Positions 13,754 through 19,668 of a stretch of 64,000 nt of DNA are shown here, one piece after another (the stretch's first letter is position 1; the number at the start of each line of letters is the position of its first letter). The notes beneath the pieces were generated by a model that saw nothing but the letters and a program-made list of their open reading frames with translations, was not told the DNA's origin and ran no database searches. This DNA comes from Polynucleobacter paludilacus (GTDB taxonomy: Bacteria > Pseudomonadota > Gammaproteobacteria > Burkholderiales > Burkholderiaceae): NCBI RefSeq assembly GCF_018687595.1, contig NZ_CP061298.1, positions 682,001 through 746,000 of the forward strand, read 5' to 3'. Made by a program: the position numbers and the translations under genes.

Positions 13754-14610
13754 TTGCTGTCCAGCAGCTAGTCCGCGCATTCGGCTTAGCTTTAGTCGGC
13801 ACTATGCACCCGCGTATGCTGTGGTTGAGTTTGCGCCCCTTTTTAATCATTTCTGTTTTTTGGGGTAGCCTAATCTGGCTCACTTGGACTCCTGCATTGG
13901 CAATACTCGGATCGTTTCTGACCAATTCTATTTTTACTAATTGGATACAAGAGGGACTGATTTGGGCGGGCTTTGATCATGCGCGCGCTTGGATTGCCCC
14001 GTTCTTTTTTGTGATGCTGGTGATCCCTCTGATCGCCATTAGCCTGTTGGTTTTGATTGCTTTCTCAACGGTGCCCACCATTGTCAATAATCTATGCAGA
14101 CAATCACAATACAGTAGCCTGCAATGCAAGCAGGGTGGAGGCTTGATCGGAAGCTTAATCTACACTGTTTGGTCTACCTTCATTTGCTTGGCTCTAGTGA
14201 TGCTGACCTTGCCAGTCTGGTGGATTCCACCTCTATTTGCGATCTTGCCCCCTTTGTTATGGGGCTGGTTAACGATGCGCCTAATGGCTTACGATGTGTT
14301 GGCTCGTCATGCGAGCAGCCAAGAGCGTGATACTTTGATTCAGCAATATCGCTGGTCTTTATTAGTCATGGGAATTGCTTGTGGAGTGTTAGGGGCAGTA
14401 CCAACTTTCTTTTGGGCTACTTCAGCATTGGCTTTAGTCTTATTTCCGATTGTGAGTTTTGTGGCTTTGTGGATCTATTCCTTAATCTTTGTTTTTGCAG
14501 GTTTATGGTTTTCTCATTTCCTATTGGATGCGCTTCAGAATTTAAGAGAAGATGAGCTCAATCAAGCCCTTGTTGTAGAGACTCGTGTACTGGATAGTGG
14601 AGAGCAGTGA
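13750..14610 (+). CDS. EI24 domain-containing (CysZ-like) membrane protein
   Basis: Product of 286 aa from the ATG at 13750, which overlaps the preceding stop as ATGA. An earlier in-frame start at 13708 would overlap the hydroxylase gene by 46 bp and looks less likely. About six hydrophobic segments are visible, with the EI24/CysZ-type pattern (MLWLSLRPFLIISVFWG near the start, LLWGWLTMRLMAYDVLARHAS in the second half). CysZ itself is a sulfate transporter, but most EI24 proteins of Burkholderiales are uncharacterised, so no substrate is claimed. Confidence 0.8.
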   Translation: MIAVQQLVRAFGLALVGTMHPRMLWLSLRPFLIISVFWGSLIWLTWTPALAILGSFLTNSIFTNWIQEGLIWAGFDHARAWIAPFFFVMLVIPLIAISLLVLIAFSTVPTIVNNLCRQSQYSSLQCKQGGGLIGSLIYTVWSTFICLALVMLTLPVWWIPPLFAILPPLLWGWLTMRLMAYDVLARHASSQERDTLIQQYRWSLLVMGIACGVLGAVPTFFWATSALALVLFPIVSFVALWIYSLIFVFAGLWFSHFLLDALQNLREDELNQALVVETRVLDSGEQ

Positions 14611-14611
14611 G

Positions 14612-15481
14612 ATGGTTGATGCTTTAAAAATAGTAGAGATTGAGTTGCCAAGCGATGCAGCAAAGAGCTCAAGACGGTTTGGCTTGATTGTGATTGGCGA
14701 TGAAATTTTGTCAGGTAAGCGTCAAGACAAGCATATGAGCAAAATGATTGAGTTGCTTAGTGAGCGAGGTTTAAGCTTGTCATGGGCTCGTTATCTGCCT
14801 GATGATCCTGCTCAAATTACCGCATGTCTCAGAGACACTTTTGTGAGTGGTGACGTGGTGTTTAGCACTGGCGGTATTGGGGCAACACCCGATGACCATA
14901 CGAGGCAGTGCGCAGCATTAGCACTAGGCACGAAAACGCAATTACATCCAAGCGCCCAAGAGCTGATAGCGGGACGCATTCAGGCGATGGCAGAAGGTGA
15001 TCCCATTAACACCGATCTCAATACACCCGAGAACCAACATCGCTTCAAGATGGGCGAGTTCCCGATTGGGAGCGAGATCATCCCTAACCCCTATAACCAG
15101 ATTCCGGGTTTTTGGATTAAAGAGCATTACTTTGTTCCGGGCTTTCCGGTGATGGCTGCCCCAATGATGGCTTGGTGTCTTGATCACTTTTACAAAGACT
15201 TATTTCATCAAGAGAATTGGTCTGAGCGAAGCTTCATAGTCCCCAAGGGGATTGAATCCACCTTGACCCCGCTGATGGAGCGGATCGAGGGGAGTTTTCC
15301 GGGCGTAAAAGTCTTTAGCCTTCCCTCTATTGGTGATCCTACTAGAGGGGGTGTGTTTGCAGAGCGTCATATCGAACTAGGCATTAAAGGTAATGCCGAT
15401 TTGCTTCAAAGTGCTTGGCTGGCCCTCAGAACTGGTACACAATCTCTCGGCTATGAAATTCACGATCTCCACCCTTCATGA
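14612..15481 (+). CDS. CinA N-terminal / MoaB-Mog (molybdopterin-binding) domain protein
   Basis: Product of 289 aa from the ATG at 14612, one base after the previous stop. It carries the MoCF_biosynth fold: GLIVIGDEILSGKRQDKH at the N-terminus and VVFSTGGIGATPDDHTRQ, the classic signature. The C-terminal CinA nicotinamide-nucleotide amidohydrolase domain is absent, so this is the stand-alone N-terminal type; function in this group is uncertain. A GTG at 14585 is an alternative start inside the upstream gene. The stop codon ends 1 base before the first NtrC-type box of the glnA control region. Confidence 0.85.
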   Translation: MVDALKIVEIELPSDAAKSSRRFGLIVIGDEILSGKRQDKHMSKMIELLSERGLSLSWARYLPDDPAQITACLRDTFVSGDVVFSTGGIGATPDDHTRQCAALALGTKTQLHPSAQELIAGRIQAMAEGDPINTDLNTPENQHRFKMGEFPIGSEIIPNPYNQIPGFWIKEHYFVPGFPVMAAPMMAWCLDHFYKDLFHQENWSERSFIVPKGIESTLTPLMERIEGSFPGVKVFSLPSIGDPTRGGVFAERHIELGIKGNADLLQSAWLALRTGTQSLGYEIHDLHPS

Positions 15482-15482
15482 T

Positions 15483-15499
15483 TGCACTAATTTGGTGCA
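15483..15499. promoter_or_regulatory. NtrC-type binding site 1 upstream of glnA
   Basis: TGCACTAATTTGGTGCA matches the classical NtrC box (TGCACTA-N3-TGGTGCA) at every consensus position. It lies about 158 bp before the glnA start and directly after the stop of the preceding gene. Binding is inferred from the match and from the ntrBC genes downstream. Confidence 0.85.
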
Positions 15500-15534
15500 T
15501 TTATAGGCCCTAGAGCCTGATAGAGATCCTTTTT

Positions 15535-15551
15535 AGCACTTAAATAGTGCA
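15535..15551. promoter_or_regulatory. NtrC-type binding site 2 upstream of glnA
   Basis: AGCACTTAAATAGTGCA is a second, slightly degenerate NtrC half-site pair (GCACT and AGTGC arms kept). Its centre is 52 bp from site 1, about five helical turns, so both sites face the same side of the DNA. No GG-N10-GC sigma-54 element lies anywhere between these boxes and the glnA start. Confidence 0.7.
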
Positions 15552-15656
15552 ATAATGCTATTCAACGCTAGCTTGCTTGAGTAAATTAGCTGCATCAAAT
15601 AGGTGTTGTTGACCTACTTATTGAGATTCCGAAATTAGATAACACAGGAGAGTTGC

Positions 15657-17072
15657 ATGACCAAGACCGTCGCCGATGTAATGAAGTTAGTTAAAGAAAA
15701 AGAATGTACTTTTGTTGATTTCCGTTTTGTTGATACCAAGGGTAAAGAACAGCACGTATCAGTACCTATTTCTGCATTTAACGAAGACAAATTTGAAAGC
15801 GGTCATGCATTTGACGGTTCCTCCATCGCAGGTTGGAAGGGGATTGAAGCTTCTGACATGTTGTTGATGCCAGATCCAACAGCTGCATACATCGACCCAT
15901 TCTATGAAGAGTCCACTTTGGTTTTGACTTGCGACGTGATCGAGCCATCTGATGGCAAAGGTTATGACCGCGATCCACGCTCCATTGCCAAACGCGCTGA
16001 AGCGTATTTAAAGAGCAGTGGTCTAGGTGATGCTGCTTACTTTGGTCCTGAGCCAGAGTTCTTTGTATTTGATGGCGTTCAGTGGAATGTCGATATGCAA
16101 GGTTGCTCAGTCAAGATTATTTCTGAAGAGGCTCCATGGTCGTCCGGTCTTGACCTTGAAGGTGGCAATACCGGACATCGTCCAGGTAAAAAGGGCGGTT
16201 ATTTCCCAGTTGCTCCAGTAGATAGCTTCCAAGATATGCGTTCAGAGATGTGCTTGATTCTCGAATCTTTAGGTATTCCAGTTGAAGTGCATCACCATGA
16301 AGTGGCTGGCCAAGGCCAAAACGAATTGGGTACCAAGTTCAGCACATTGGTACAACGCGCTGATTGGACCATCTGGCAAAAGTATGTTGTGCAAAACGTT
16401 GCTCATGCTTATGGCAAGACAGCAACGTTTATGCCAAAGCCAGTCGTTGGCGATAACGGTTCCGGTATGCACGTTCACCAATCCGTTTGGAAGAATGGTG
16501 AGAACTTGTTTGCTGGTAACGGCTACTCAGGTTTGTCCGAGTTTGCTCTGTACTACATCGGCGGCATCATCAAACACGCCCGTGCCCTGAATGCGATCAC
16601 CAACCCAGGCACCAACTCCTACAAGCGTTTGGTACCAGGCTTTGAGGCGCCAGTGAAGTTGGCTTACTCAGCTCGCAACCGTTCTGCGTCGATCCGTATT
16701 CCTTATGTTTCAAATCCTAAGGGTCGTCGTATTGAAACTCGCTTCCCAGATCCATTGGCTAACCCATACTTGGCGTTCTCTGCCTTGTTGATGGCCGGTT
16801 TGGATGGTGTACAGAACAAGATTCACCCAGGTGAAGCGGCTGACAAGAACTTGTATGATTTGCCACCAGAAGAGGATGCAAAGATTCCAACTGTATGCCA
16901 TAGCTTAGATCAAGCTTTGGAGTGCTTGGACAAGGATCGCGAATTCTTGACCCGTGGTGGTGTGTTTACCAATTCGATGTTGGATGCTTACATTGCATTG
17001 AAGATGGAAGAGGTCACACGTTTCCGTATGACTACCCATCCAGTCGAATTTGAAATGTATTACTCCCTGTAA
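15657..17072 (+). CDS. glnA: Glutamine synthetase, type I (GlnA)
   Basis: ATP-dependent ligation of ammonia to glutamate, the main route of ammonia assimilation. The 471-aa product has the N-terminal beta-grasp domain with [12 protein letters not shown], the ATP/metal motifs [25 protein letters not shown], the [19 protein letters not shown] region, NRSASIRIP and ETRFPDP. The adenylylation region NLYDLPPEE, with Tyr near 400, is present, so control by GlnE is expected. The ribosome-binding site CAGGAG is 6 bp before the ATG. It is followed by ntrB after 14 bp. Confidence 0.98.
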
Positions 17073-17086
17073 GAGAAGGAAAGAAC

Positions 17087-18220
17087 TTGAGCGCAGGTTT
17101 ATTGCGCAATTCGTTCAAGGGAGCAGCTTCGGCTGCTCCTTTTTTTCCGACATTGCTCGATCAAATTCCTAATGCCATCGTGATTTTCGAGGCAGATAGT
17201 CAGCAGCTGGTATATGTAAATCCTGCTGCAGAGTCTGCTTTGGATCTTTCACGTAAATCGCTGGAAGGCCAAAACTTCCAAGATTTGTTTGGCGATAACC
17301 TGCAACTCAAGGAAATGATCTCTGAAGTTAGGCGCGGTCAAGTTCCAGCTCAACGTCAGGAACTTTTGCTCCATTCTTTACCAGGTAGCATTCATCAAGA
17401 GACAATACCCGCCCATGTTGTGATTGCTCTGATGGATGACTCTGAATTCATGTTGATGGAGTGGTTTCCGATTGATCAGCAGTTGCGAACGGAGAGAGAT
17501 GAGCGGGTAACGCAGCAGGTCGAAGCGAATAAAGAACTCATGCGCAATTTAGCTCATGAAATCAAAAATCCGCTTGGTGGCATTCGGGGCGCTGCTCAGC
17601 TTTTAGAGTTCGAGTTACCTGAAAAAGGCTTGCGTGAATATACCCAGGTCATCATCAAAGAGTCAGATCGTTTACAGACCTTAGTTGACCGCCTTTTAGC
17701 GCCGCATCGTAAAGCACATGTGATGGAGTATTTCAATGTTCATGAGGCTTTAGAGCGTGTGCGCAGCCTAGTGTTGGCCGAGTTTCCCAAGGGCTTGAAG
17801 ATCGTGCGTAATTACGATACTAGCCTGCCAGATCTCTTGGGTGATCGTGAACAGTTGATTCAGGCGGTACTCAATATTGCTCATAATGCGGCTCAAGCAC
17901 TCAGTAATGAAATTGAGGCAGGGGTTGCGCAAATTGAACTCCGCACTCGAGTGGCCCGCTCGGTAACAATTGCTAAACAGCGCTACAAACTCGCCATGGA
18001 TCTAGATGTGATTGATAACGGTCCTGGGATACCAGCTGATATTCGTGAGCGGATTTTTTTCCCACTCGTTTCTGGACGAGAGGGTGGTAGTGGCCTAGGG
18101 CTGACCCTGGCGCAAACCTTTGTTCAGCAACACCAAGGTTCAATTGCTTGTGAGAGTAAGCCAGGCTATACCCATTTTCATATTCAAATACCGTATCGCA
18201 GGCAGGAGAAATCAGAATGA
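17087..18220 (+). CDS. ntrB: Nitrogen regulation sensor histidine kinase NtrB (GlnL)
   Basis: Cytoplasmic kinase/phosphatase that sets the phosphorylation state of NtrC in response to PII. Seen in 377 aa: a PAS domain (about 23-125), the H-box NLAHEIKNPLGGIRGA with the phospho-histidine near 157, the N-box NIAHNAAQAL, and G-boxes DNGPGIP and GGSGLGLTL. The TTG start is chosen because AGAAGGA lies 7-8 bp upstream and because no good start exists before the PAS domain. Codons 12-20 coincide with a strong intrinsic terminator. The stop overlaps the ntrC start as ATGA. Confidence 0.93.
   Translation: MSAGLLRNSFKGAASAAPFFPTLLDQIPNAIVIFEADSQQLVYVNPAAESALDLSRKSLEGQNFQDLFGDNLQLKEMISEVRRGQVPAQRQELLLHSLPGSIHQETIPAHVVIALMDDSEFMLMEWFPIDQQLRTERDERVTQQVEANKELMRNLAHEIKNPLGGIRGAAQLLEFELPEKGLREYTQVIIKESDRLQTLVDRLLAPHRKAHVMEYFNVHEALERVRSLVLAEFPKGLKIVRNYDTSLPDLLGDREQLIQAVLNIAHNAAQALSNEIEAGVAQIELRTRVARSVTIAKQRYKLAMDLDVIDNGPGIPADIRERIFFPLVSGREGGSGLGLTLAQTFVQQHQGSIACESKPGYTHFHIQIPYRRQEKSE
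17117..17146 (+). terminator. Intrinsic terminator nested in the 5' end of ntrB
   Basis: GGAGCAGC (17120-17127), loop TTCG, GCTGCTCC (17132-17139), extended by A-T and G-T pairs and followed by seven T residues (17140-17146). This is a near-ideal Rho-independent terminator for glnA mRNA. It lies inside the ntrB reading frame as started at TTG 17087, so ribosomes entering ntrB would melt it while untranslated RNA would terminate. Confidence 0.85.
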
Positions 18221-19668
18221 AACCAATTTGGATCGTCGATGATGATCAATCTATTCGTTGGGTTCTTGAAAAAGCCCTTACGCGGGAAGACATTCCTCAC
18301 CGTAGCTTTACCAACCCTAATGATGTCCTGAATGCACTAGAGAAGGATACACCCAGTGTCTTGATTTCAGATATTCGGATGCCGCGTGGGAACGGCTTAG
18401 ACCTTCTCCAGCATGTGAAGGTGAGTCATCCTCATTTACCTGTCATTATCATGACGGCCTACTCAGACTTAGATTCTGCAGTTTCTGCATTTCAGAGCGG
18501 CGCCTTTGAATACCTCACTAAACCCTTTGATTTGGATAAAGCGCTTGAGCTGATTCGACGCGCTATTGAGCAGGGTGATCGCGCTCAGTCAGGCACCAAG
18601 GTTGCTGATGATTGGAGGCTAGACCAATCTGAAGTTATTGGCCAAGCACCAGCGATGCAAGAGGTATTCAGGGCGATTGGTAGGTTGGCACAGTCCCACG
18701 CTACGGTATTGATTATGGGTGAATCTGGCACTGGTAAAGAGTTGCTAGCCCAGGCTCTGCATAAACATAGCCCCAGAGCCAAAGGTGCTTTCATTACCTT
18801 CAGTAGCTCTGCAGTACCAAAAGAATTACTTGAATCAGAATTGTTCGGTCATGAAAGAGGAGCCTTTCCAGGTGCTCAGACTCTAAAACGCGGTCGGTTT
18901 GAGCTAGCAGAGGGCGGCACCTTATTCTTAGATGAAATTGGTGACCTCTCTGCTGATTTGCAAACCCGTTTGCTCAGAGCGCTTACTGATGGCCATTTCT
19001 ATCGCACTGGTGGGCAAGATCCTATTAAAGCCAATGTGCGTATCATTGCCTCGACCCATCAGAACCTAGAGGCGCGAGTATCTGCTGGACTCTTCCGCGA
19101 AGATCTTTTGCATCGCTTAAATATCATCCGTTTGCGTATGCCACCCCTGAGAGAACGCTCTGAGGATATTCCTTTGTTAGCGCGGCACTTTATGCAAGCT
19201 TGTGCAAAGTCACTTGGCGTTGAAGCTAAAAAGCTATCGGATGAAGCCCTACAGCACATGACGAATATGTCTTTCTCGGGCAATGTGCGTCAATTGGAAA
19301 ACCTCTGTCATTGGCTTACCGTCATGACACCCGCCAGCACAATTGGAGTCGGAGATCTTCCCAGCGATTTATTCACGGCTACTAATGAACCTGCCGTGAT
19401 TGTGCAAGGCGAGTCTACATCAATTGCTCCTGCGCTGAATCGTTCCAATACCAGTGATTGGGAAAATGGCTTAGGCCGACTTGCGGTCAAGATGTTACAA
19501 GATGGCGATCAGTCGGTATTTGATGCCTTGACCTCACGTTTTGAGAAGGCTGTTCTCCAAGCGGCGCTTGAAGTAACCCGTGGTCGTCGGGTTGAGGCGG
19601 CTCAACGTTTAGGTATCGGCCGTAATACGATTACCCGTAAGTTGCAGGAATTGGGTATCGATGACTAG
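18217..19668 (+). CDS. ntrC: Nitrogen regulation response regulator NtrC (GlnG), with altered sigma-54 contact motifs
   Basis: Seen in 483 aa: receiver domain with phospho-Asp 52 (LISDIRMP) and Lys 102 (LTKPFD); AAA+ domain with Walker A GESGTGKE (168-175) and Walker B GGTLFLDEIGDL; and a Fis-type helix-turn-helix at the C-terminus (RVEAAQRLGIGRNTITRKL). Two positions depart from the sigma-54 activator consensus: the GAFTGA loop reads GAFPGA (Pro 218), and the LNCAA/LNMAA switch Asn is Ser 196 (FITFSSSAVP). Both are important for remodelling sigma-54 polymerase in homologues. The gene overlaps ntrB by 4 bp and xth by 8 bp. Confidence 0.93.
   Translation: MKPIWIVDDDQSIRWVLEKALTREDIPHRSFTNPNDVLNALEKDTPSVLISDIRMPRGNGLDLLQHVKVSHPHLPVIIMTAYSDLDSAVSAFQSGAFEYLTKPFDLDKALELIRRAIEQGDRAQSGTKVADDWRLDQSEVIGQAPAMQEVFRAIGRLAQSHATVLIMGESGTGKELLAQALHKHSPRAKGAFITFSSSAVPKELLESELFGHERGAFPGAQTLKRGRFELAEGGTLFLDEIGDLSADLQTRLLRALTDGHFYRTGGQDPIKANVRIIASTHQNLEARVSAGLFREDLLHRLNIIRLRMPPLRERSEDIPLLARHFMQACAKSLGVEAKKLSDEALQHMTNMSFSGNVRQLENLCHWLTVMTPASTIGVGDLPSDLFTATNEPAVIVQGESTSIAPALNRSNTSDWENGLGRLAVKMLQDGDQSVFDALTSRFEKAVLQAALEVTRGRRVEAAQRLGIGRNTITRKLQELGIDD

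Follow-up and report, generated by a model that had tools for sequence, protein, structure and literature searches.

The analysed window, a 64 kb stretch of a Polynucleobacter genome, carries the genes glnA-ntrB-ntrC in that order, with two conserved NtrC boxes in front of glnA and no recognisable sigma-54 promoter, and we detect no gene for sigma-54 (RpoN) anywhere in the source genome. We consider it probable that glnA, together with ntrBC, is regulated by NtrC independently of sigma-54, at an ordinary promoter of the sigma-70 family. A preliminary description of this DNA had proposed sigma-70-type control of glnA, and the proposal is now supported by the lack of RpoN, the order in which sigma-54 elements were lost among relatives, and a conserved distance between the nearer NtrC box and a predicted -10 hexamer. 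That the promoter is of the sigma-70 class, where it starts and that NtrC activates it are all three things that we infer from sequence.

The source genome (G000) is a complete single contig of 1,670,875 bp (1.67 Mb), rated 100% complete. Other G numbers denote compared genomes and L numbers fetched stretches; the genus sample comprised 151 genomes, 117 of high quality. Clades are named after the sigma-54 contact loop of their NtrC, canonically GAFTGA. The features discussed are as follows.

15483-15499, + strand: predicted NtrC box 1 (distal), TGCACTAATTTGGTGCA, centred about -103 from the predicted start; kept in the GAF[PQS] clade
15535-15551, + strand: predicted NtrC box 2 (promoter-proximal), AGCACTTAAATAGTGCA, centred about -51 from the predicted start; half-sites conserved
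15551-15556, + strand: AATAAT, a possible second promoter overlapped by box 2, part of the extended -10-like TGCAATAAT (15548-15556)
15582-15587, + strand: TAAATT, the predicted -10 hexamer, exactly 30 nt downstream of box 2; transcription would start near 15594
15600-15616, + strand: place of the former -24/-12 element, TAGGTGTTGTTGACCTA; relatives have TGGCATN6TGC or a likely relic, AGGCATGTTTGATGC; no GG-N10-GC left
15657-17072, + strand: glnA, type I glutamine synthetase (TIGR00653, 660 bits)
17087-18220, + strand: ntrB (glnL), sensor kinase NR(II) (NF008293, 317 bits)
18217-19668, + strand: ntrC (glnG), response regulator NR(I) (TIGR01818)
18859-18876, + strand: codons for NtrC residues 215-220, GAFPGA: Pro replaces Thr in the sigma-54 contact loop

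Two conserved NtrC boxes precede glnA

The open reading frame (ORF) upstream of glnA (14585-15481, 298 aa) stops 2 bp short of box 1, so the entire glnA control region is a 175-bp gap. Both boxes that the preliminary description had placed there, a perfect one and a weaker one, were located, and their start-to-start distance is exactly the 52 bp it gave. Box 1 has a perfect TGCAC/GTGCA dyad and a single mismatch to TGCACC-N5-GGTGCA; box 2 has three mismatches to that consensus, yet its GCAC-N7-GTGC core is perfect. This core occurs at only two sites in the whole window, namely the two boxes, and when the control region was shuffled 5000 times with its dinucleotides kept, 0.18% of the shuffles contained one such site and none contained two. 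Another exact dyad elsewhere in the genome (131802), located where an ORF ends, was not considered further.

Across 53 scored loci of the GAF[PQS] clade, the box-to-box distance is 52 bp in all but one (52/53), and identity in the half-sites of box 2 is 98-100% per column, as against a mean of 61% in the inter-box spacer. Both boxes are thus strongly conserved sequences, which we predict to be NtrC sites for glnA.

Loss of sigma-54 promoters from glnA and glnK-amtB

A pattern scan of the control region (15483-15656) found no GG-N10-GC, which bears out the earlier report that spacer and leader lack this element. The nearest approaches are a GG-N11-GC that begins within box 1 and a GG-N10-GC at 15740, within glnA itself; against TGGCAC-N5-TTGC, no site in the control region exceeds 7/10, and the best one lacks the GG/GC. 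However, 0.68 occurrences of GG-N10-GC are expected by chance in 174 bp, so that its absence alone is no evidence, and we compared the genome and its relatives instead. In outgroup proteobacteria with GAFTGA and enough upstream sequence, a GG-N10-GC element scoring 8-10/10 precedes glnA in almost all cases, and the method therefore finds sigma-54 promoters where they are expected. Within the genus, glnA of the G149-type clade has TGGCAT-N6-TGC, and most GAF[PQS] species have AGGCATGTTTGATGC at roughly the same distance from glnA, likely a relic of the sigma-54 promoter. The window's own clade lacks even this relic. The G436-type clade, with GAFTGA and a canonical rpoN, has lost the promoter at glnA and kept it at glnK.

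The porin-glnK-amtB operon was compared by loop type. A 10/10 match to TGGCAC-N5-TTGC is present in 5/5 GAFTGA genomes examined, lying about 65 bp before the annotated start in four of them with the NtrC boxes further upstream, whereas it is found in 0/15 non-GAFTGA genomes, whether or not they have rpoN elsewhere, even as the boxes persist. The best match among those 15, a 9/10 in G354, lies about 300 bp upstream of the boxes there, from where it could not serve glnK-amtB in the usual way.

We also considered a conserved leader RNA, because in the GAF[PQS] clade CATACATCC and GGGTGTATG could pair around AGGCAT/ATGCCT in a 133-nt leader. We rejected this reading: the variation is almost all one-sided, the outermost pairs are broken in about 40% of sequences, the segment is missing in the window's clade, and there is no Rfam match. 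A short, weak hairpin, AGGCAT...ATGCCT, could form in most relatives at the equivalent of window positions 15600-15616.

RpoN is missing and its canonical slot is empty

Neither Sigma54_DBD nor rpoN_sigma (TIGR02395) has a match in the complete G000 genome, and lptB is followed directly by hpf, which leaves the canonical rpoN slot empty. The two genes adjoin in the same way in all ten further genomes tested that have a GAF[PQS] or AQFGNT loop. The canonical order, kdsC-lptC-lptA-lptB-rpoN-hpf-ptsN-hprK-rapZ, is seen in G149, G274 and G436 (neighbour names were read from the sequences by eye, and lptB alone was tested). Overall, RpoN is found in 60 of the 151 genus genomes (48 of the 117 of high quality). 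Of eight GAF[PQ] genomes with rpoN that we examined, all eight carry it outside the lptB-hpf slot, six of them in an island with bactofilin, GGDEF, CheW-like and PDZ proteins. G334, with GAFTGA and a non-canonical rpoN, retains a decayed rpoN remnant between lptB and hpf (L205, 2346-2627; 36% over about 94 residues). Non-canonical rpoN copies were seen in L164-L174 (for example L166, 9328-10719, - strand), and G304, G454, G399, G496 and G170 (a second copy) have rpoN in still other contexts.

Since sigma-54 is undetectable in G000, its control of glnA is excluded within the reach of the models used. A sigma-54 that is divergent or escaped detection, acting through a non-canonical -24/-12 element, would fit with the rpoN genes of some GAFPGA relatives and with the GG-N10-GC relic that most relatives retain at glnA. 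We regard this explanation as close to refuted: the genome is complete, the control region has no GG-N10-GC, and the GAF[PQ] genomes with rpoN outside the lptB-hpf slot, where sampled at glnK-amtB, lack the sigma-54 promoter of that operon.

A fixed distance between the proximal box and a predicted -10 hexamer

When the 3' end of the proximal box is used to align all clades, a -10-like hexamer lies at 30 nt in nearly every Polynucleobacter clade sampled and also at amtB2, the second amtB, which is separate from that of the glnK-amtB operon. The hexamer is TAAATT in the window, the GAF[PQS] and AQFGNT sequences and G334; elsewhere it is TACATT, TAAAGT, TCTAAT or TTTAAT, and CATAAT at amtB2. In a few G149-type loci the distance is 31 nt instead. 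At offset 30, 14 representatives match TATAAT at 4.5/6 positions on average, compared with 2.71 at the next best offset. In 5000 random rotations the maximum over offsets averages 2.70 (standard deviation 0.14) and never reaches 4.5; a stricter set of seven gives 4.43 at offset 30, again with 0/5000 rotations. This null includes the choice of offset and excludes the choice of box. An exact-pattern scan of 14 genomes returned 16 matches, six of them before amtB2, one before glnA and three before an ORF of ATP-grasp type whose homologue in the window's genome also has an upstream box. Outgroup glnA regions, including one from an enterobacterium (Pantoea), have no peak at 30 nt, so the arrangement looks to be genus-level and older than the loss of rpoN.

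Several observations weigh against a sigma-70 promoter activated from this distance. The spacing was first noticed by eye, which makes the rotation test partly post hoc, and it is not kept at glnK-amtB, where the boxes lie nearer the putative -10. TAAATT matches the consensus at only 4/6 positions and has no clear -35. A sigma-70 consensus scan finds no standard promoter in the glnA control region, although such a result is expected of an activator-dependent promoter and is not decisive. Finally, AATAAT, which directly adjoins box 2, is no less conserved in the clade (100% of the 53 scored loci) and would suggest repression.

The last point is the basis of an alternative that we think rather unlikely, namely that NtrC is a repressor of glnA, with box 2 abutting or overlapping an extended -10 (TGCAATAAT) so that bound NtrC blocks RNA polymerase, as at E. 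coli glnAp1, which NtrC represses (PMC3870243). AATAAT also recurs in separate loci (L040/41, L045, L055), and Caulobacter NtrC, another protein without GAFTGA, represses several promoters (PMC10274813). However, neither amtB2 nor the glnA regions of the GAFANA and G149-type clades have AATAAT, whereas all of them share the hexamer at 30 nt; for this reason AATAAT was rejected as the sole promoter. Moreover, if glnA has no other promoter, repressing it when nitrogen is limiting would be of little physiological use.

NtrC has an altered loop but remains under selection

The window NtrC scores 639.5 bits against TIGR01818 (cut-off 558.6), with residues 4-479 aligned to positions 1-463 of the 463-position model; together with the gene order, this identifies it as the NR(I) equivalog. 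As the preliminary description had pointed out, the protein is altered, reading GAFPGA for GAFTGA. It is also the only full Sigma54_activat enhancer-binding protein in G000, the remaining hits being weak partial matches in large ORFs. The nearest named record, from Polynucleobacter sp. Latsch14-2, has an NtrC 80% identical with the same loop.

GAFTGA is confined to the outgroups and to 14 sequences in two Polynucleobacter clades, all of them RpoN-positive and one reading GSFTGA. Other loops are GAF[PQS] (n = 57), AQFGNT (n = 2) and GAFANA-like (n = 8). On an NtrC tree built with a quick method, three groups of loop states need 3 changes, compared with a mean of 25.8 after shuffling. The Walker B aspartate is replaced by glycine in a single 31-member clade (Shimodaira-Hasegawa-like approximate likelihood ratio test support 97%), and one further sequence lacks the Walker B glutamate; the window NtrC retains Asp-Glu. 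Despite the non-GAFTGA loop, D52, the Walker A lysine (GESGTGKE) and the helix-turn-helix are conserved.

These features bear on the explanation that NtrC and its boxes are leftovers drifting since the loss of sigma-54, with glnA constitutive or controlled only post-transcriptionally. Erosion of the loop and of ATPase residues would fit, as would the ntrC genes with in-frame stops or shortened reading frames in G259, G094 and G363 (one stop only in G363), which may be recent losses. But an NtrC-type match is present in 151/151 genus genomes (at least one in each, weak in a few incomplete assemblies), and the ratio of nonsynonymous to synonymous substitution is low, with pairwise medians of 0.02-0.03 within the GAF[PQS] clade and 0.04 between the window and its nearest relative, so that purifying selection persists without sigma-54. 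The half-sites are also held while the spacer drifts, and the 30-nt spacing is fixed across diverged clades. We therefore judge drift to be very improbable.

Possible parallel cases come from two further genera of the family that do not appear among those with RpoN: their NtrC-like proteins, at 49% identity, read GAFSGA (L116, from G021) and GAFTGA (L117, from G022) in the loop.

Proposed mechanism and sign of control

Under nitrogen limitation, NtrB would phosphorylate NtrC at D52, as homology suggests. NtrC dimers would then bind box 2, with cooperative help from box 1, which lies five helical turns further up. The predicted promoter, whose start places the centre of box 2 at about -51, has a poor -10 (TAAATT) and lacks a recognisable -35; phosphorylated NtrC would there contact or recruit the housekeeping RNA polymerase without any remodelling of sigma-54. 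NtrC may instead, or additionally, repress from the second -10 (AATAAT) adjoining box 2.

The preliminary description had left the choice between activation and repression open. The 30-nt spacing favours activation from about -51 without settling the matter: a fixed distance despite diverged sequence, recurring at two genes, is explained more easily by polymerase contact than by occlusion. Thus, activation seems to us the likelier sign of control, with repression or a mixed effect a lesser possibility.

Viewed together, the relatives form a ladder. At one end are members with GAFTGA, canonical rpoN and sigma-54 promoters at both glnA and glnK-amtB; a middle rung has GAFTGA with a sigma-54 promoter at glnK only; the last has GAFPGA, a deleted canonical rpoN, no sigma-54 promoter and often the Walker B change from Asp to Gly. 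With evenly balanced confidence, we suggest that the nitrogen regulon of Polynucleobacter was handed over stepwise from sigma-54 to sigma-70. The first step would have been the rise, beside sigma-54, of a sigma-70 promoter whose NtrC box lies at about -51. The glnA sigma-54 promoter would next have decayed; losses of the canonical rpoN, of the GAFTGA loop and of the sigma-54 promoter at glnK would then have followed, joined in a large clade by that of the Walker B aspartate. The outcome would be a phosphorylation-gated activator that does not hydrolyse ATP, derived from an AAA+ machine, with intermediates still living.

One abundant freshwater genus thus holds members with an intact sigma-54 circuit, members half-way and members with none, so that the conversion of an ATP-driven activator into an ordinary one is testable with natural proteins and promoters, the -51 spacing being a concrete prediction. 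A further consequence is that the presence of ntrC alone is poor ground for inferring sigma-54 regulation.

Other candidate members of the regulon

The window's clade (G000, G012, G319) has a single amtB, compared with two in all other genus members tested, and the copy it lacks is the one with a conserved NtrC box. In G000, an NtrC-like box, TGCACCAATATGGTGAA, lies at about 2880 of L126 (G000:C1:574879) upstream of the ATP-grasp-type ORF, which is followed by an overlapping alpha-E-like ORF (both named by eye). This ATP-grasp-type family has a box in the 30-nt arrangement in G436 and G399 and may therefore belong to the NtrC regulon.

Comparison with known systems

No publication on RpoN or NtrC in Polynucleobacter turned up in a search of open-access literature. 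Experimentally, control of sigma-70 promoters by NtrC is known from a few Alphaproteobacteria. The NtrC sites of Rhodobacter capsulatus are arranged in tandem, far upstream. Polynucleobacter conserves a proximal box near -51, and has additionally lost the canonical rpoN and, in many species, the Walker B aspartate. According to Bowman and Kranz (1998), as cited in PMC10274813, R. capsulatus NtrC likewise keeps its phosphorylation site and ATP-binding motif; its loop, as described there, is deleted, whereas Polynucleobacter, a betaproteobacterium, has point substitutions of Thr to Pro, Gln or Ser.

Caulobacter crescentus NtrC also lacks GAFTGA, is required for glnBA expression, and is both an activator and a repressor of sigma-70 promoters (PMC10274813, PMC12421884). 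It differs in having an 8-residue loop deletion, in needing Walker A and B, and in an organism that retains other GAFTGA enhancer-binding proteins and hence a working sigma-54. The window NtrC would fit this R. capsulatus and Caulobacter type, with its non-GAFTGA loop and its conserved phospho-acceptor, ATP-binding site and helix-turn-helix. The E. coli glnALG operon similarly has tandem NtrC sites before glnA, with NtrC acting on glnAp1 (sigma-70) and glnAp2 (sigma-54) (PMC3870243), but E. coli relies on glnAp2 and sigma-54, whereas no -24/-12 element remains in the window. Vibrio cholerae VspR, in the account cited in PMC10274813, has the enhancer-binding-protein fold without GAFTGA and acts at sigma-70 promoters; on the same account it works without phosphorylation and is not orthologous to NtrC.

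It is established, from R. capsulatus and Caulobacter, that NtrC without GAFTGA can work at sigma-70 promoters (PMC10274813). The Polynucleobacter case stands apart by its lineage, by a loop that is point-substituted, by a canonical rpoN that has been deleted, by how widely Walker B has been lost, and by the proximal box at a fixed spacing.
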